From Eublepharis macularius (taxonomy: Eukaryota; Chordata; Lepidosauria; Squamata; Eublepharidae): 64,000 nucleotides of DNA. Location: positions 46,197,368-46,261,367 of the forward strand of contig NC_072791.1 in the NCBI RefSeq assembly GCF_028583425.1, read 5' to 3'. Shown here piece after piece: positions 4,101-64,000 of the stretch. The position numbers and the translations under genes are program-made. The notes beneath the pieces were generated by a model. That model had not been told where the DNA came from, did not search any database, and saw only the letters and a list, made by a program, of their open reading frames with translations. Numbering within the stretch: position 1 is the stretch's first letter; every line of letters starts with the position of its first letter.

Positions 4101-7100
4101 AAGTTACACATCCTACAACGGGGAAGCACAAATCTTCCACAAAACTTGCCAGAGTACCCTCAAGATTATAGTGTTTCAGCTTTGATTACCTCATCATAGA
4201 AACAGTGAAACTTCTGCCAAAGTTTACTCCTAGAGATCAATGGCTATTGGAAAATCCCTTCCAGTTTCCTTGGGAAAATGTGACATGTCTGCCCTAGACC
4301 TAGTGATTGGTCCATTTTTATTGAAAAAAAATCAGTGACAGAGGATCAGTCTAGAAGAGCTTAGTGTTGGACACACTACTTGGAAACATGCTTCCTTGAA
4401 ATCTTCAATGAGTCATTTTGTTGTGGTAAATGCTATATTTAGGAGTGGACATACAATGTTTCACAACCAAGTGAATTTGAGGGAAAGCCCTCCTGTTCAG
4501 CAAAACCAGCCAAAGTTGTGCATAAATATGAAAAAAAATTCAAAGGATATTACTACATTCCTTCCCCCTGCAAATTCTAAAAAAAAAAAATCGATAACAG
4601 CTGATTTGCTGTCCCTGATAAAGGTTGCAATAGAATTACTCAACACATAGCTGTCTGAAGGATTTTAACATGAATCAGCAAGTTGTAAGTACACAAAAGG
4701 TGAATCAAGCCTGAATAGAATAAACTGGTTAGGCTGAGTTTTATGGAGCTCAAGGGCATGGAGTTCATTCACAGATTCAGAACTAAATTTGGTGTGAATG
4801 GAGATTAATTTTTTCTCTCTCTCACAATAAAATTTGCTATCCTGTTTTTTGGGGTATGGGAGGCTGTTTTTCAAGGGTTTGCTTGTTTTGGTTAGCTTTC
4901 TGACTAACTGTCACCTACAGGAAGAATAGCCTTAAATTTGGCAATCCAAGTACAGATCATATTAAGACTTAAGTAAGATGTCCAATGTGTAAACAAAACC
5001 ATTTTGCATGAGTCCATTGGAACAAGAGTTGGTAAGGAACACATTATTTATGGATTTGAATGTTTCCACTAAAACTAGGTCACAAAATCAGCCCCAAACT
5101 CTTAACTACTATTAATTTAAGCAAACAGCTTAAGATTTGGATAAATGCATTTGAGATAAAGTTTGTTTTTCCTCCAGGTAGTCCTGACAAAGCCAGCATA
5201 TTCACACATACATGCTATTAGCAGCGCTAAACACCTTCACATGTGAAGGGGAGAACCAGTCAGAAAATGTTTGGGAACGAATAGCAGCAACGTGCTGCGA
5301 TGCTCCTGGCAATATCTGCTATGTGCCCTTGGCTGTTTATTAGCAAAACGCCTATCATTGTGGGGAGTGAATGGTATTTGTAATGATGTCTTGCATACAA
5401 GCAAGAATCACTGAGAGGTGCAATCTCCTGCAGGATCCTGACATTCAGGGCTGGGCCATGCTGGAATGAAGCACAGATTTTGTCCTCATCACCAAGTTGT
5501 TCCCTAGCACACAGCTTTTCTTTTAGCAGTGAATGGCTAATATTAATTCACATGATAGGAAGTAAGAACAGCACACTAGGGGCCACACCTGTTCCTCATG
5601 TTTCCAGCTATTAGGAATTGTGTGTTCTTTCACCTGCACAGCACCCTTCTGGTTTCTCAGTCACATGGAATGAGATGGAACACTAAAAGCAGGTTTTCAT
5701 ACATAGCTAGATTTATGTAGCACCATCAGTGTAAATGGCATTTTATAGAACAACCGCAAGAAGAGGGAGAGGCCTGCACCCCAAGGAAAATCTAACACTG
5801 GGCAGGAGAGAACACATTGAAGTATAACAGGAAATGTCAGCAAATTTATCTTCCCCTTATAGTGTGCAATGGTTAGCACTAAAAAGAACTACTGATTACC
5901 CTGAGCATCTAGCCAATATAGAAAGACACTTGCAAAAGTATTCTGCAAATAAAATGTACACACAGCAAAAGCAATTGCTCTGCAAAGCGTGAATCAGCCC
6001 TCTAAGCTGTATAAAGCAACTTCTACTCTCACATGACTAGTGACACATTGACCATTTGTCTTTGTCTCAAAAAGTCTTGCCAACTACATGTGCAAGCTTT
6101 AGAAGGAAACTGTGGCCTCATAAAATTGCTCAGTTTGTGTCTAAAACCATTAATGAATCAATAATCCTATTTGTTCGTGAGCAGAACAAAACAGGGCAGC
6201 TTTACTTCCACTATGTCTGTACATGCTTACTCAGAAGTAAGTCACTGAGTTCAATGGGATTCATTTCTTTGTAAGTGCACTTCAAACACACTGCAGCCTT
6301 AGTTTCAAATCAACTCTCATGCTGAAAGAATAAGGAAGTGGGTATTTAGTGCAGAAGCTGTTTGCGAAATCACACTGACACCCCCTATACATGAGCCCCT
6401 GGATGAGCTGCAAGTACAACAGTCAGTTATGATTCCATGTGCTTCAATTTATGCAGAGCATTTCTGAGACCAATGGCTTATACACATATCAGCACATTAT
6501 TAAGGAAACTGCATTCCCAGAAAGCAGTCACAGCTAACAGGACTAGTATAACGGTCACCAGTAATTAAACTTTGTATTCCAGCATGATAATTCACATCCA
6601 TGCAAGTGAATATGAACTATATGGGAAACCTCATGCTGACTCCTCCTTTAGTTATTTTGGCAATCAGAGGTGCTAAAAAGTCTACCATCACCAAAGACAA
6701 ACAGCTGTTGTGCTTATACTGCATGTGGATAAGCTGCATTCAGCTGGCTAAATTGCCATTCTGTGTCAAGCAATAACAATATGGTTTTGCCACATTCTGT
6801 AAAAAACTCTGCTTATCTGCTGCACTGATTAATTGGTACAAATTTTGCAGAGGGGGAGGGAACCTGTTCTCATTAGGCCATGTGATACCTTTCTTAGGAG
6901 CAGTGGGTGTCTCACTCCCCACTTCTATTCATCCCTCTCTACTCCCAAGACCCTTCCACTTCATTTTAAAGACACCCCCTCCTCCTTCACTGGAACAAGT
7001 TCACTGGAACAAGTTTGTGAATGAACAGTTCATTCACAAAGCCATTCCCACAAAGCCAGGTTTTAAAAAAAAAAAAACACAGAAGAGCCAGTGGAATTCA

Positions 7101-36625: not shown

Positions 36626-37300
36626 GCAGCGATTGGGGCAGGGAGGAGGTGGCAATGCCCAATTGTCCCCCCCCCCCGCCTTCAGCCAGCAGCGATCAGG
36701 GTGCAGAGCAAGTGGCAATGCCCGCCCACTTTCATCAGGCTGGGATCAGGTGATTAGCAGGTGGCAATGCCCATCCGCCTCTTCACCTGGCTGGGATCAA
36801 GAACAGAGCAGGTGACAATGCCCGCCCCCTTTACCTGGTTGGGATCAGGTGCAGAACAGGGGGAAATGCCTGCACCCCCTTCACCCAGCCGGGATCAGGC
36901 GTGAAGCAGGTAGCAATGCCCACCCACCCTTCACCCGGCCGGGATCAGGCGTGGAGCAGGTGGCAATGCTCGTCCCCCATTCACCCAGCTGAGATCAGGA
37001 GTGGAGCAGGTGTCAATATCTGCCCCCCTTTCACCCAGCTGGGATCAGGAGTGGAGCTGGCGGCAATGCCTACCTCCCTTCACCCGGCTGGGATCAGGCA
37101 TGGAGCAGGTGGCAATGCTCGTCCCCCCTCCACCTGGCTGGGATCAGGAGTGGAGCAGGTGTCAATATCTGCCCCCCCTCACCCAGCTGGGATCAGGAGT
37201 GGAGCTGCCTACCTCCCTTCACCCAGCAGGAATCAGGCACGGAGCAGGAGGCAATGCCCACCCCCCCTCACCTGGCCGGGATCAGGTGCAGAGCATGATG
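36626..37300 (+). repeat. minisatellite, about 13 units of 50 bp, with trimeric higher-order period
   Basis: Units of the form GGGATCAGGNGTGGAGCAGG, TGGCAATGCCC, pyrimidine-rich CCCCCTTCACCCGGCT. Units at 36942-37090 (three variants in the order CGTG/GCTCG, AGTG/TATCTG, AGTG/CCTACC) are repeated in the same order at 37091-37229. The proline-rich frames here (for example 36901-37326) are products of the repeat. Confidence 0.9.
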
Positions 37301-40081: not shown

Positions 40082-40212
40082 CCTTGAGTCTCTGTGAGAA
40101 AGAGTTAGCCGTGTTAGTCTGTGGTATCTGACGAAGAGAACTTGATTCTCGAAAGCTTATGTTACAATAAAATTGGTTAGTCTTAAAGGTGCTACTGGAC
40201 TCTTTTTGATCA
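40082..40212 (+). mobile_element. Penelope-like 3' end with degenerate hammerhead
   Basis: GAGTTAGCCGTGTTAGTCTG...CTGACGAAGAGAAC..GTTACAATAAAATTGG...GGTGCTACTGGACTC is the same 3' end as at 62586. Core bases CUGACGA (40128-40134) and GAAAGCUU (40151-40158) and the GAGAA/UUCUC helix II are intact, but helix I is reduced to weak A-U and G-U pairs. Confidence 0.8.
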
Positions 40213-40363
40213 GTGAGAAAGGTGGACTATAAATGACAAATGACATACATACATACATGCATACAAAACCTTATCCTAAAAATGTTCATAGGGTAAACTA
40301 AGCTCATGCTATCATGTTAAGTAGGTTGAATATAAATAGATTTGATGAGAGGTGTGTGCCGTA

Positions 40364-42308: not shown

Positions 42309-42525
42309 GAGGGGGTATGGCTCAATGGTAGAGTATCGGCTTTACATGCAGGAGGGCCCGGGTTCAGTCCCAGCATCTCCAGTTAAAGGGGTTAGGTAGC
42401 AGGTGTTGTGAAATACCTTGACCCGTGCGACTGGAGAGCTGCTACCAATCAGGGTAGACAATACTGAATGTAATAGGCCAATAGTCTGACTCAGTAGAAG
42501 GCAGCTTCTTGTCTTCATATGACAA
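42309..42525 (+). mobile_element. tRNA-derived SINE, second family (plus)
   Basis: GGTATGGCTCAATGGTAGAG (A-box), TACATGCAGGAGG, GGGTTCAGTCCC (B-box), then the non-tRNA body CATCTCCAGTTAAAGGGG...GACTCAGTAGAAGGCAGCTTCTTG. It lacks a proper acceptor stem, so it is a SINE and not a tRNA gene. Confidence 0.85.
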
Positions 42526-47800: not shown

Positions 47801-48689
47801 TTTTTTTTCTGATCTGGGGACAGGGTAAGTATCCAATTTTCTCATCACCCGTGAGTTAGGAATTGTGTTCCTAACTCCTCTCTTAACTGAGAGGAATTGT
47901 GTTCCTCTCAGTTCTTCAGTACAAGCCGGAAGATGTAGACTAAGACGACACTCTGATCCACTGGAGCTCAAGAATTGTTTTGAGGTGCTTGAGATGGTGA
48001 TGGAGATGAGAGTGGAAGGAGAACCACAAAGATCTGGAGGAGGGAGAGAAGAGGGTATGGGGCCACACGGAAGTGGAAGAAAATGGAAAGTGGTGGTTGT
48101 CGGGGACCCGCTGCTCAGGGGTATGGAACGTCATGTGTCCAGGCCAGATTTCCTATTCTGAGAGATGTGTTGCTTGCTGGGGGCCAGAATTCAGGATATT
48201 ACAGACCGACTGCCAAAACTGATCAGACTGACTGATCAGTACCTGTTTGTGCTGGTTCACGTAGGAACGAATGACACGGCCATGAATACCATTGCATGAA
48301 TTAAAGAGGACTATGAAGTTCTTGGAACGCAGTTGAAGACATTAGGGGCACAGGTGGTATTTTCTTCTATCCTTCCTGTCAAAGGAAGAGGAATGCAAAG
48401 GGAGCAGACCATACTCGAGGTGAATCGTTGGCTGAAGTGGTGGTGCCAGCAGAAGCGCTTTGAGTCTGGGACCACAGGCTAAGTTTTCTCAGAGAAGGCC
48501 TTCTGGCACATGATGGGCTTCACTCCTCAAGGTCAGGGAAGAAAATGTTTGGAAAGAACCTGGAGAGCTTCATCAGGAGAGCTTTAAACTGATGCCTCAG
48601 GGGGAGGGGGACGATCAACATGGGGATTTCAATGAAGAAGTGATAACAGCAGGGGCCCACCTGAGTAGGACAGATCAAACAAAGGTACA

Positions 48690-49369
48690 AGGCCACAAGT
48701 GCCTATATACCAATGCCCAAAGTATGGGCAATAAGAAGGAAAAGCTTGAGCCTCTCTTGCAAACAGAGGGCTACAATATAGTAGGAATTACTGAGACTTG
48801 GTGGGATGATTCCCATGACTGGAATGTGGTAGTGGATGGGTATGAGTTGTTCAAGAAAAACCGGAAGGGTAGAAGAGGAGGCAGAGTGGCATTGTATGTA
48901 CAGAAAAGGGCTTGATTGTCAGCAAGTTCTGGAGAATGTGGTTGACAGCCCTGTGGAAAGTATATGGGTGGAAATAAGGGGAGGAAGGACAAAGGGTATT
49001 GTTGTTGGAGTCTGCTACAGACCACCTGACCAGGGAGAGGAAATGGATGCTGCCCTCCTTGAACAGATTGGTAGCGTATCCAGACATCAGAACCTTATAG
49101 TTATGGGTGACTTCAACTTCCCCAATGTGTGCTGGGAGACAAGCTCAGCAAAGCAACAAGAATCACACAACTTCCTGACCTGCCTGGCCGATAACTTCCT
49201 TTTTCAGATGGTGGAGGAAGCTACAAGGGGCTCAGCCATACTAGACTTAATATTAACCAACAGGAAAGAATTGGTAGATGGGGTGAAGGTGGTGGGAACC
49301 TTAGGGGGAAGTGACCATGTCCTCCTTGGATTCCAGTTGCTCTGGGGGACCAAGGAGGTTCGTAGCTAG
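48690..49369 (+). pseudogene. CR1 ORF2 endonuclease (EEP) region, broken
   Basis: Two overlapping frames (48592-48915 and 48836-49369) together cover the apurinic-like endonuclease domain. Catalytic motifs seen are N-A-Q-S, I-T-E-T-W, G-D-F-N and S-D-H. The frame change near 48900 separates them, so this copy cannot make an intact enzyme. Confidence 0.85.
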
Positions 49370-49903
49370 ACTCATAGGTTAGATTTTCGTAGGGCCAACT
49401 TCGATGAACTTAATGAGAGTCATTTCATGGGGGAGTGTGCTGGAAGAGAAAGGAGCAAGTGAAGGGTGGGCTCATCTCAAACATGAGCTTTTGTAAGCTT
49501 AAGCCCTCACTATTCCAGCAAGACGAAAACATGGTAAGGGCTCCAAAAACACATGTGGATGAACAGAGAACTCCAGAAAAAGCTAAGGGAGAAAAGGGAA
49601 ATGTTCAGGAAATTGAGAGGACAGACCTCCAAAGAGGAATATATGGGGGTTACTAGGTACTGCAGATCAGCCATCAGAGAAGCCAAAGCTCAGTATGAAC
49701 TGGGTCTGGCCAGGGGTGCTTGCTACAATAAGAAAAACTTCTACAGATATGTGAGAAGCAAATGCAAGGTAAAAGAGGCAATTGGACCATTGTTGGGAGT
49801 AGAAGGAGAAACTCTGATGGAGGACAGAGAAAAAGCAGATAGGCTTAATTACTTTTTTGCCTCTGTTTTCTCCCTGAAAAACTTGAGCCTGAACTGGAGA
49901 GCC

Positions 49904-50124
49904 AGTTTGGTGTAGTGGTTAAGAGCACGGGACTCTAATCTGGAGAACCAGGTTTGATTCCTCACTCCTCCACTTGAAGCCACCTGGGTGACCTTCTCTC
50001 AGCCCCACCCACCTCACAAGGTGTTTTGTTGTGGGGATAATAATAACATACTTTGTAAACTGCTCCGAGTGGGTGTTAAGTCATCCTGAAGGGCAATATA
50101 TAAATCGAATGTTATTATCTAGAG
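49904..50124 (+). mobile_element. Sauria SINE inserted in CR1 ORF2
   Basis: GAGAGCCAGTTTGGTGTAGT, GGTTAAGAGCACGGGACTC, CCAGGTTTGATTCC (B-box), CCACTTGAAGCCACCTGGGTG, CAGCCCCACCCACCTCACAA, then a ...AATATATAAATCGAATG tail. This head is the diagnostic Sauria SINE sequence. It splits the CR1 endonuclease-RT linker. Confidence 0.92.
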
Positions 50125-50180
50125 ATGGTAGAAGACATGACAGGACACCTGGGTGGCTAGTTGACATTCACTGAGAGGTT

Positions 50181-51150
50181 GTGAAGAGGCACTTGGCTGC
50201 ACTGGATGAATACAAATCCCCTGGGCTGGATGGTGTGCACCCAAGAGTGCTCAAAGAACTTTCTAGAGAACTTGCCATGCCTCTGTCCATCATCTGCAAG
50301 GCCTTCTGGAGGACTGGGGATGTGCTACAAGATTGGAGAAGAATGAATGTTATCCCAATCTTTAAGAAAGGGAAGAAGGATGACCTGGGAAACTACAGGC
50401 CAGTCAGTCCGACTTCTGTTGCTGGGAAGATATTAGAGCAGATTTTAAAGGGATTGATCTGTAAGCATCTGAAGGACCGCTTAGTGATCCGGGGAAGTCA
50501 ATATGGTTTTGTCCCCAACAGATCTTGTCAGACCAACCTGGTTTCCTTCTTTGATCGAGTGATGAGCTTACTGGATCATGGGAACTCTGTCAATGTAATT
50601 TACCTGGATTTTAGCAAAGCTTTTAATAAGGTTCCCCATGACAGTCTAATGGGTAAACTGCAAGACTGCGGACTAGACTATAGGACAGTTCGGTGGATAG
50701 GAAACTGGTTAGAGGACCGCACCCAAAGAGTGGTGGTCAATGGCCTTTCATCAGATTGGAGGGAGGTGTCCAGTGGGGTGCCGCAGGGCTCAGTTTTGGG
50801 CCCGGTACTTTTCAATATTTTTATCAATGATCTGGATGAAGGGGTAAACGGGCTACTCATTAAATTTGCTGATGATACCAAATTGAGAGGAGTGGCAAAC
50901 ACCCAAGAAGATAGAGTTAAAATTCAACAAGACCCGAATACTCTGGAGAAGTGGGCGGTTGTGAACAGGATGCAATTCAACATAGATAAGTGCACAGTAT
51001 TACATCTGAGCCACAAAAATGGGAAGCACAAATACTGGATGGAGGATACACTTCTGGGAAGTAGTGTATGCAAAAGAGATCTTGGGGTAAGAGTGGACTG
51101 TAAACTAAATATGAGCAGTCAGTGTGATGTGGTGGCAAAAAAAAGCAAAC
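50181..51150 (+). pseudogene. CR1 ORF2 reverse transcriptase region
   Basis: About 320 residues of open RT sequence with fingers/palm motifs: KKGKKDDLGNYRPVS, LDFSKAFNKVPHD (motif A), SGVPQGSVLGP (motif B), FADDTK (motif C with the catalytic DD). The frame ends early because the foldback MITE interrupts it at 51155; the remaining C-terminal part resumes after 51360. Confidence 0.9.
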
Positions 51151-51154
51151 TCAG

Positions 51155-51354
51155 AGCAAAGCTACAAGTGACGCCTGACACGGGTTGGACACTTGTCAGC
51201 TTCCCTCAAGTTTTGATGGGAAATGTAGGCATCCTGGTCTTGCAGCTGTAATGGAGAGCCAAGCTGTAAAACCAGGATGCCTACATTTCCCATCAAAACT
51301 TGAGGGAAGCTGACAAGTGTCCAACCTGTGTAAGGCGTCACTTGTAGCTTGGCT
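51155..51354. mobile_element. 200-bp foldback MITE inserted in the CR1 RT
   Basis: Arms of about 90 bp are nearly exact complements (AGCAAAGCTACAAGTGACG at the left, complement of AGCCAAGCTACAAGTGACG at the right, followed by GGACACTTGTCAGCTTCCCT and its complement). 5-bp direct repeats CTCAG (51150-51154, 51355-51359) flank it. Excising one copy restores the CR1 peptide ANSVLGCIKRAI, apart from one extra A. Confidence 0.93.
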
Positions 51355-51899
51355 CTCAGTCTTGGGTTGTATCAAAAGGGCCATTGCATCAATATTGCAG
51401 GAAATCATATCATAGTCCCTCTCTATACTGCCTTGGTCAGGCTGCACCTGGAGTACTGTGTGCAGTTCTGGAGGCCTCACTTCCAAAAGGATGTGGACAA
51501 AATTGAGATGGTGCAGAGGAGAACAATGAGGATGATCAGGGGTCTGGAGACTGAGCCCTATGAGGAAAGGCTGAGGGCCTTGGGAATGTTTAGGTTGGAG
51601 AAGAGATTGAGGGGGGATTGCTCTCTTTATTTGAAAGGCTGTAATTTGGAGGAGGGCAAGGAGCTGTTCCAGTTGGCAGCAGAGGATAGGACTCGAAGCA
51701 ACGGGCTTAAATTACGTGCAGAAAGGTACCAGCTGGATATTAGGTGGTGAGCTCTCCTTCACTGGCAGTTTTCAAGAAGAGGCTGGATGAATATTTTTCA
51801 GAGCTGCTTTAGGCTCATCCTGCATTGGGCCAGGGGTTGGACTAGAAGGTCTGTATGGCCCCTTCCAGCTCTGTGATTCTGTGTTAGTTTTACATTATA

Positions 51900-62580: not shown

Positions 62581-62633
62581 GGGAAATCAAAAAGAGTCCA
62601 GTAGCACCTTTAAGACTAACCAATTTTATTGTA

Positions 62634-62673
62634 GCATAAGCTTTCGAGAATCACAGTTCTCTTCGTCAGATGC
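62634..62673 (-). ncRNA. type I hammerhead ribozyme in the PLE 3' end
   Basis: On the minus strand: GCAU / CUGACGA / GAGAA-loop-UUCUC / GAAA / GCU-U / AUGC. Helix I is GCAU with AUGC (62670-62673 and 62634-62637). Helix II is a perfect 5-bp GAGAA/UUCUC stem with a short loop. The core CUGACGA (62663-62669) and GAAA (62642-62645) is complete. Helix III is the minimal self-complementary AGCU expected for dimeric action. Predicted cleavage is after U at 62638. Hammerheads are known in PLE terminal repeats; activity here is inferred. Confidence 0.85.
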
Positions 62674-62729
62674 ATGGAGAGCAAAAAGAAACTGGTCAGA
62701 TATAGAGGAGGAGAGGGGAGGGTGGAGTA

Positions 62730-62810
62730 GATGCAAACAGCTCCTTCTGATATGGAGATGCAAACAGCTCCTTCTGATATGGAGATGCAAACAGCTCCTT
62801 CTGATATGGA
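62730..62810 (+). repeat. three tandem 27-bp repeats in the PLE 3' UTR
   Basis: The unit GATGCAAACAGCTCCTTCTG plus ATATGGA is repeated exactly three times (62730, 62757, 62784). It lies between the PLE stop codon and the ribozyme. Confidence 0.95.
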
Positions 62811-62839
62811 GATCAGTTTGCTTCTGTTGAGGAAATCAG

Positions 62840-63583
62840 TTACCTCTGATAATGAGATAACCATTCATAGTCCCTATTCAGTCCCAGCTTGACAGAGTCA
62901 AATTTACATATGAATTCCAATTCAGCAGCTTCCCATTGGATTTTGTTTTTGAAAGGTTTCTGTTGAACTACAGTGACCTTTAAGTCTTTGATGGAATGTC
63001 CTGGTAGATTGAAGTGTTCTCCCACTGGTTTCTGGATGTTGCCATTTCTAATGTCAGATTTGTGTCCATTTATTCTTTTGCGTAGAGGTTGGCTGGTTTG
63101 TCCAATGTACAGAGCAGATGGACATTGTTGGCACATGAGGGCATATATCACATTGGAGGATGAGCAGCTGTAAGAGCCAGAGACAGTGCAGTTGATGCCA
63201 TTGGGTCCTGTAATTGTATTCCCTGGGTAGATATAAGGGCAGAGCTGGCATCTGGGTCTGTTGCAGGGCCTGGTATCTGTGCTGGTGACTCTGCTAGCCG
63301 ATTCATGATTGTAAGTGAGAAGTTGTTTAAGGTTGGGGGGCTGTCTGTAGGCAAGGAGAGGTCTTCCACCCAGGGCTTCTGAGAGAGAGGTATCATATTC
63401 CAGGATGGGTTGTAGCTCACTGATGATACGTTGGATGGGTTTGAGCTGGGAACTATAGGTGACAACCAGTGGTGTTCTGTTGTTAGTTCCTTTAGGTTTG
63501 TCCTGGAGCAGGCTGTTTCTGGGTACTAGTCTGGCCCTGTTGATTTGTTTCCTCACTTCATTTGGTGGGTACTGTAGCCCCAA
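62840..63583 (-). CDS. PLE endonuclease-bearing open frame (GIY-YIG), partial ORF
   Basis: A 247-residue open frame continues the PLE polyprotein. Around residues 105-115 is the zinc-finger-like linker CNRPRCQLC. The GIY-YIG nuclease follows, with YALMCQQCPSALYIGQTSQP, LRKRINGHKSDIRNGN and GEHFNLPGHSIKDLKV. The conserved Tyr, the Arg of LRKRINGH, and the H-F-N/G-H block all look intact. The last 60 residues (QWEAAELEFICKFDSVKLGL then NRDYEWLSHYQR) are the usual PLE C-terminus. In PLEs this nuclease nicks target DNA to prime reverse transcription. The RT part upstream is incomplete, so the element is not autonomous, though the nuclease frame itself is open. Confidence 0.9.
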   Translation of the reverse strand: MGLQYPPNEVRKQINRARLVPRNSLLQDKPKGTNNRTPLVVTYSSQLKPIQRIISELQPILEYDTSLSEALGGRPLLAYRQPPNLKQLLTYNHESASRVTSTDTRPCNRPRCQLCPYIYPGNTITGPNGINCTVSGSYSCSSSNVIYALMCQQCPSALYIGQTSQPLRKRINGHKSDIRNGNIQKPVGEHFNLPGHSIKDLKVTVVQQKPFKNKIQWEAAELEFICKFDSVKLGLNRDYEWLSHYQR

Positions 63584-64000
63584 AAATGCTTGTTGTAAAT
63601 CTCTTAAGTGGGAGTCCCGATCAAGAGCGTTGGAGCAGATTCAGTTGTAACGTAAGGCTTGGCTGTAGACAATTGACCGAGTGGTATGTTTAGGGTGGTA
63701 GCTGGAGGCATGTAGATATGAGTATCGGTCTGTGGGTTTCCGGTATAAGGTGGTATTTATCCGTCCATTATGTAGTTGTGCAGTGGTGTCCAGGAAGTGT
63801 ACCTGTTGTGTAGAGTGGTCCAGGCTAGTAGGGTGAAAGTGGCCACAACCGTGCCCATCCTCTACGCAGTGCTTTATTTACTCAGGGAGATCTTTAAGTG
63901 TGTGGAATAATAATCCTAATGCCTTTTTCTAATGCCCCCCTTAAGAAATAAGCCTTCTTTCATTTATCTGCATAATTCTAATTTGGATTGTTCTTCTTGG

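Follow-up and report, generated by a model that had tools for sequence, protein, structure and literature searches.

A minimal hammerhead motif in a truncated Penelope-like element of Eublepharis macularius and the paired ends of its insertions

The minus strand of the 64-kb stretch of DNA analysed here (the window) carries a short motif resembling a self-cleaving RNA. The question that this locus raises is whether the motif is the hammerhead ribozyme of a mobile element and, if so, whether its cutting has a part in making the RNA templates from which new insertions are copied.

The hammerhead motif and the element that carries it

An earlier note on this DNA had described a complete hammerhead near the 3' end of a Penelope-like element, transcribed in the sense of the minus strand. 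Every piece that it named (CUGACGA, GAGAA/UUCUC, GAAA and GCAU/AUGC, in type I order) was found on that strand, which from 62673 to 62634 reads GCAU CUGACGA A GAGAA CUGUGA UUCUC GAAA GC U U^AUGC. The caret marks the predicted cut, which falls between 62638 and 62637, exactly where the note had placed it. The order CUGANGA, GAAA, UH and an open-ended helix I are those of a type I hammerhead, save for one extra A after A9. This single A (62662), absent from the note, separates CUGACGA from helix II and is a departure from the textbook hammerhead core. The proposal that the AGCU palindrome serves as helix III was also supported; the word complete was an overstatement, as helix III consists of one A-U pair around a 2-nt loop. 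The coordinates are collected in Table 1.

Table 1. Features of the window discussed in the text
Feature	Position	Strand	Basis
Minimal hammerhead motif	62634..62673	minus	sequence; descriptor compared with random control; 4,029 exact 36-nt cores genome-wide
Helix I strands	GCAU 62673-62670 / AUGC 62637-62634	minus	sequence
Core CUGACGA	62669-62663	minus	sequence
Helix II strands	GAGAA 62661-62657 / UUCUC 62650-62646	minus	sequence
GAAA; GC; U; H17 (U)	62645-62642; 62641-62640; 62639; 62638	minus	sequence
Penelope-like element copy, 5'-truncated, short-tail (S) 3' end at 62584	62584..63840	minus	blastn to L040
Open frame of 266 aa with GIY-YIG endonuclease domain (C-terminal part of element protein)	62840..63640	minus	Pfam PF01541, E 2.7e-05
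Second frame, end of reverse transcriptase region	63641..63840	minus	DNA homology to L040; protein likeness by eye
Tail downstream of the cut site, short end class (..GGACTCTTTTTGATTT)	62584..62637	minus	tail 30-mer count; end classes
Tandem repeat of a 27-bp unit (3.1 copies, identity 100%), located between protein frame and hammerhead	62729..62813		TRF
Second, short insertion	40103..40212	plus	read by eye; 40123-40210 vs L040, 95.5%

A descriptor made of the core, a helix II with 4 or more pairs and a helix I with 4 pairs, one additional base before helix II being permitted, matched twice on the two strands of the window (at 62669, minus, and at 40128, plus), as compared to a single match in total in 100 first-order random sequences, that is 0.01 per 64 kb. 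CTGANGA followed by GAAA, taken alone, occurs in the window at the level of chance (8 observed vs. 6.51 expected). The predicted fold contains helices I and II and one inner pair, and its stability is unremarkable (z -0.96); the other folding z-scores are likewise unremarkable. No match to a hammerhead covariance model was obtained, the outcome that the earlier note had named as refuting its reading: Rfam gave no hammerhead at gathering score over the whole window, nor with E values up to 10 around the site. At gathering score, Rfam was also blank for hammerheads at three other loci that hold relatives of the motif, so this result reflects the library more than the window copy. A search of viral_contigs, which may omit records of the present genome, returned no match to one exact hammerhead pattern.

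The host element was delimited by blastn against a longer genomic copy (L040), which aligned with 62834-63840 at 95.3% and with 62584-62676 at 95.7%. Positions 62677-62833 gave no alignment to L040 and are counted in the element because they are flanked by the two aligned parts. Homology to L040 ends at 63840 and therefore the window copy is 5'-truncated; by eye, no target duplication was recognised for the copy at 62584..63840. L040 contains a 710-aa open frame in which RVT_1 (E 1.6e-11) and GIY-YIG (E 1.1e-04) lie together, and the presence of reverse transcriptase and GIY-YIG in one frame indicates a Penelope-like element. Of protein domains, the window copy has GIY-YIG only, and Pfam gave no match when 63641-63877 was searched separately. 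A PDB sequence search returned two non-significant matches only for the window protein (E 0.32 and 0.58) and no match up to E 0.1 for the L040 protein. The assignment to a Penelope-like element that bears a minimal type I hammerhead close to its 3' end is borne out, and the minus strand as the sense of transcription is likewise supported. The single window copy has no demonstrable function, and the self-cleavage that the earlier note proposed for it is at most putative: the copy is 5'-truncated, its minimal relatives reportedly require dimers (PMC7761336), and the anole relative is inactive in the absence of its protein (PMC11167929).

In L040, L048 and L081, the region that separates the protein frame from the active-looking hammerhead holds a nested hammerhead-like copy, older and diverged, which was recognised by eye; in L040 it forms a head-to-head pair (about 1750-1900 and 4270-4400). 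As to tandem copies with pseudo-LTRs, L048 has two copies on the same strand 487 bp apart, the first with a long-tail end, and these may be separate insertions.

The second descriptor match (40128, plus) forms the end of a further copy from this Penelope-like family, in which the two outer pairs of helix I would be G.U wobbles. The short insertion to which it belongs consists of an inverted remnant of a long tail (about 40103-40126), the hammerhead (40128-40162) and a short tail, and has a 9-bp target duplication, GTGAGAAAG, at 40094-40102 and 40213-40221. By eye, it obeys the pattern of one short and one long end described below.

Other repeats were also observed in the window. A tRNA-like sequence at 42311-42381 (plus; Rfam 39.2 bits, no ARAGORN call) runs on as a tRNA-derived SINE would, and presumably resembles squamate SINEs. 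LINE remains at 48514-51750 (plus), which we take to be CR1-like, encode, each in a frame of its own, an endonuclease (PF14529, E 2.9e-13) and a reverse transcriptase (PF00078, E 2.1e-32). A GC-rich minisatellite with periods of 50, 99 and 149 bp (TRF) lies at 36670-37286.

Abundance and decay of the copies

In the 2.24-Gb genome, the 36-nt hammerhead core has 4,029 exact copies and a 30-nt stretch of the tail has 38,880, whereas the reversed-pattern controls for both have 0. At least three places of the tail 30-mer (L012, L017 and L018) are without a hammerhead upstream, and these hold a repeated unit with a common flank at all three.

The guanines G8 and G12 of the motif, which by their numbering and roles we take to be the catalytic ones, have CpG partners that are free (C7) or wobble-tolerant (C11.1), and therefore offer two internal controls for decay. 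In exact genome-wide counts, a comparison that assumes equal mutation of both CpG strands, C7T exceeded G8A (1,257 vs. 888), which leans toward protection, whereas C11.1T was rarer than G12A (540 vs. 674), which leans against it; summed over both sites, tolerated changes were 1,797 and disabling ones 1,562. A protection of the catalytic guanines is not upheld by these mixed signs, since loss of G8 or G12 is not consistently rarer than the tolerated changes at the same CpGs. The earlier note had expected genomic copies to preserve pairing. One pair of helix II varies among A-U, G.U and G-C, and the whole set did not exceed shuffled data: over 11 pairs and 24 distinct variants, the covariation score was 0.112 as compared to 0.101 in shuffled data (82 of 500 shuffles were as high), and 88.3% of the cells were paired vs. 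87.9% after shuffling. The decay of the copies is thus close to neutral, an outcome compatible with either the presence or the absence of a function in the source elements.

Where insertions begin and how their ends are paired

With cleaved RNA as the regular template, the cut site would be the expected starting point of insertions. Head-to-head joints that coincide precisely with it were found in 4 places, and a control joint set 2 nt downstream also has 4, while 30 places have the joint at the nearby AAGCTT palindrome and at least 579 (579 forward, 575 reverse) at the ATGCAT palindrome, which includes the 5' strand of helix I and thus the first nucleotides of the ribozyme; the joint patterns are unequal in length and in subfamily reach, so the ratios are rough and only large differences count. 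In 505 tails the ATGC of the cut site follows a base other than T, and 20 of these loci (21 arms) were examined and classed by eye. Ten of the 21 arms are U17 point mutants, 4 are other rearrangements and 7 have their start at the cut-site ATGC or a joint through it (3 joints through a shared ATGC, the two arms of L114, which both start at the cut, and 2 arms beginning beside apparent host DNA). Therefore, starts at the cut site exist, as a minority. That insertions usually begin there is unsupported, given the 4 joints against 4 in the control and the minority of starts. From the joint counts we infer that most templates had escaped cleavage and that the end of many copied RNAs lay at, or close to, the first nucleotides of the hammerhead, bearing in mind that a polymerase halted by the ribozyme fold would leave what looks like an RNA 5' end. 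The structure of the insertions argues against cutting as the usual step of template making.

Two classes of 3' end were distinguished: a short one (..GGACTCTTTTTGAT, with some scatter) and a long one (..TTTTGCTACTACAGACTAACACGGCTAACTCCTCTGG), which lies about 35-42 nt further, is often followed by ATCTAT and was called from a match to the long-tail 21-mer in which at most 6 edits were allowed. In the long tail, a stem can form whose loop contains the short end, a fold that with z +0.47 is not significant. One short and one long end were present in 67 of the 69 scored head-to-head pairs, which come from two sets. The first, all on contig C1, was made of the first-listed places of the tail 30-mer and of chosen close pairs among the listed matches of the core, C7T and C11.1T. 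Of its 55 pairs, 34 adjacent head-to-head pairs remained after removal of segmental duplicates, and 33 of these were short/long, a count in which the rows C1:4923645 and C1:5211000 still appear to duplicate one another and the L081 row rests on the nested older copy, its outer left end being long too. The exception (C1:8846153) has a further copy on the same strand beyond its short end, and the outer end of that copy is long; in L091 the short end extends about 10 nt beyond the usual one. The second set consisted of 40 more pairs, taken in list order among the listed ATGCAT-joint matches with exclusion of those already examined. Both tails were recognisable in 35 of the 40, and 34 of these 35 were short/long, the exception being L130, which runs into another copy; the other 5 had no tail on one side. 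No recognisable partner tail was found in L086 and L096, 2 of the 20 pairs of one examined batch. A flanking duplication scoring at least 8 was present in 29 of the 35 scored loci of the second set, a count that has no random control. Head-to-head inverted copies with target duplications and a tail are thus present, as in Penelope-like elements. Single-armed insertions also occur in the sample (for instance C1:2137870), and to these the short/long rule is inapplicable.

The tail subfamily was the same in both arms in 30 of 34 pairs, as compared to 7.2 expected and a maximum of 16 in 10,000 shuffles. Among the four discordant pairs, L089 shows a clear difference, another differs at one base only, and the matches of the remaining two are doubtful. 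That the head-to-head arrangement comes from a single cDNA folding back on itself is hard to reconcile with one short and one long end and with the different tail subfamilies of the L089 arms; for the other pairs it may still apply. The rule of one end of each class is stated neither in the consulted parts of PMC3846280 nor in those of PMC11167929, and we make no claim that it is unpublished.

Role of the motif and its published relatives

In our judgement it is very probable that the window holds a decayed, 5'-truncated Penelope-like insertion, whose minimal type I hammerhead lies near the apparent 5' end of the copied RNA, and that this RNA is mostly uncleaved. To go by the insertion ends, only a few nucleotides would separate the beginning of the hammerhead from the apparent 5' end of the RNA that gave rise to many short insertions, and most of that RNA would have been copied uncleaved. 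This reading would put the start of the element RNA at helix I, at the GCAUCUGACG start. As published for relatives, activity of such minimal ribozymes is probably confined to dimers or to RNA that the element protein holds. Against this reading stand the blank in Rfam, the extra A before helix II, the lack of significant covariation, the ambiguous decay counts and the 7 of 21 arms at the cut-site ATGC.

A bolder reading, which we hold to be somewhat less likely than not, is that two reverse transcriptions per insertion, one for each cut DNA strand, must use the short and the long start, and that the hammerhead would be part of the 5' architecture of the RNA and not a cutter of templates. Both start sites would probably belong to the same RNA molecule, bound by a dimer of the protein. 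In many of the short insertions, each of the two copies would reach the RNA 5' end at the first nucleotides of the hammerhead, and the two would join via the ATGCAT palindrome of helix I.

A different account, which we regard as rather unlikely, is that the motif is fossil, or persists solely through overlap with a promoter start, protein binding or the start of reverse transcription, its ribozyme activity being irrelevant. In its favour, loss of the catalytic guanines at the two core CpGs shows no consistent depletion, close pairs carry G8A in both arms at least 2 times and G12A in both arms at least 4 times (conversion between arms could also explain these), and catalytic mutants of the anole relative inserted normally in vitro, according to the part of PMC11167929 consulted. 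Drift in the source elements would not be expected to leave the core so complete in the commonest copies; moreover, C7T exceeds G8A, and the same source describes the anole relative as catalytic when its protein is present. Still less probable is a hammerhead active in vivo in tandem transcripts, with the cut units as the real templates of insertion, as in retrozymes. The intact core in thousands of copies, the published view that tandem motifs may cut as dimers (PMC7761336, in part) and the insertions beginning at the cut site, in L114 in both arms, would agree with it, whereas the insertion ends disfavour it, since joints at the cut site equal the control and are far rarer than those at helix I (4 vs. 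at least 579). A chance resemblance to a hammerhead, for which the absence of an Rfam match and the unremarkable stability of the fold could be adduced, is refuted for practical purposes by the 0.01 matches expected per 64 kb, by thousands of identical copies against 0 for the reversed pattern, and by the location of the motif in a type of element where such motifs are described.

With tens of thousands of copies in one genome, such questions can be tested by counting. The mostly uncleaved templates and the rule of one short and one long end constrain any model of how the element moves; together with the joint at helix I, this rule deserves most further attention.

Similar insertions have been described in bdelloid Penelope families, which, in the consulted parts of PMC3846280, likewise have head-to-head inverted repeats, palindromes at the joint and target duplications. 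Their 31-bp tail, optional on one inverted repeat, resembles the short and long ends found here; few copies are described, and the word hammerhead is missing from the main text as consulted. A closer counterpart is PAc (Poseidon of Anolis carolinensis), for which the parts of PMC11167929 consulted report a hammerhead that cuts only with its protein present, catalytic mutants that insert normally in vitro, no reads starting at the cut site, and two adjacent reverse-transcription starts with extension of both DNA strands. PAc and the gecko element both encode a protein with reverse transcriptase and GIY-YIG, and in both two adjacent starts correspond to two tail lengths. In our own reading of the RNA printed there, PAc has a 4-nt palindromic helix III, ACGU vs. 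AGCU here, and like the window motif one additional nucleotide between A9 and helix II. The start codon of the PAc protein lies inside the hammerhead, at the start of stem II, whereas the window motif has no ATG there.

According to the parts of PMC7761336 consulted, which cites Cervera and de la Pena (2014) and Lunse et al. (2017) on minimal type I hammerheads, such motifs of Penelope-like elements usually lack the non-conserved nucleotides of helix III and may cut as dimers, their activity and role in vivo being still a mystery; PMC6155905, also consulted in part, gives a similar account. The predicted hammerhead of the gecko element at 62634-62673 fits these minimal, helix-III-poor hammerheads. 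They are alike in type I order, near-absent helix III, terminal location and thousands of copies, with no essential difference in the published descriptions consulted, and the ribozyme is an ordinary example of a kind already known.
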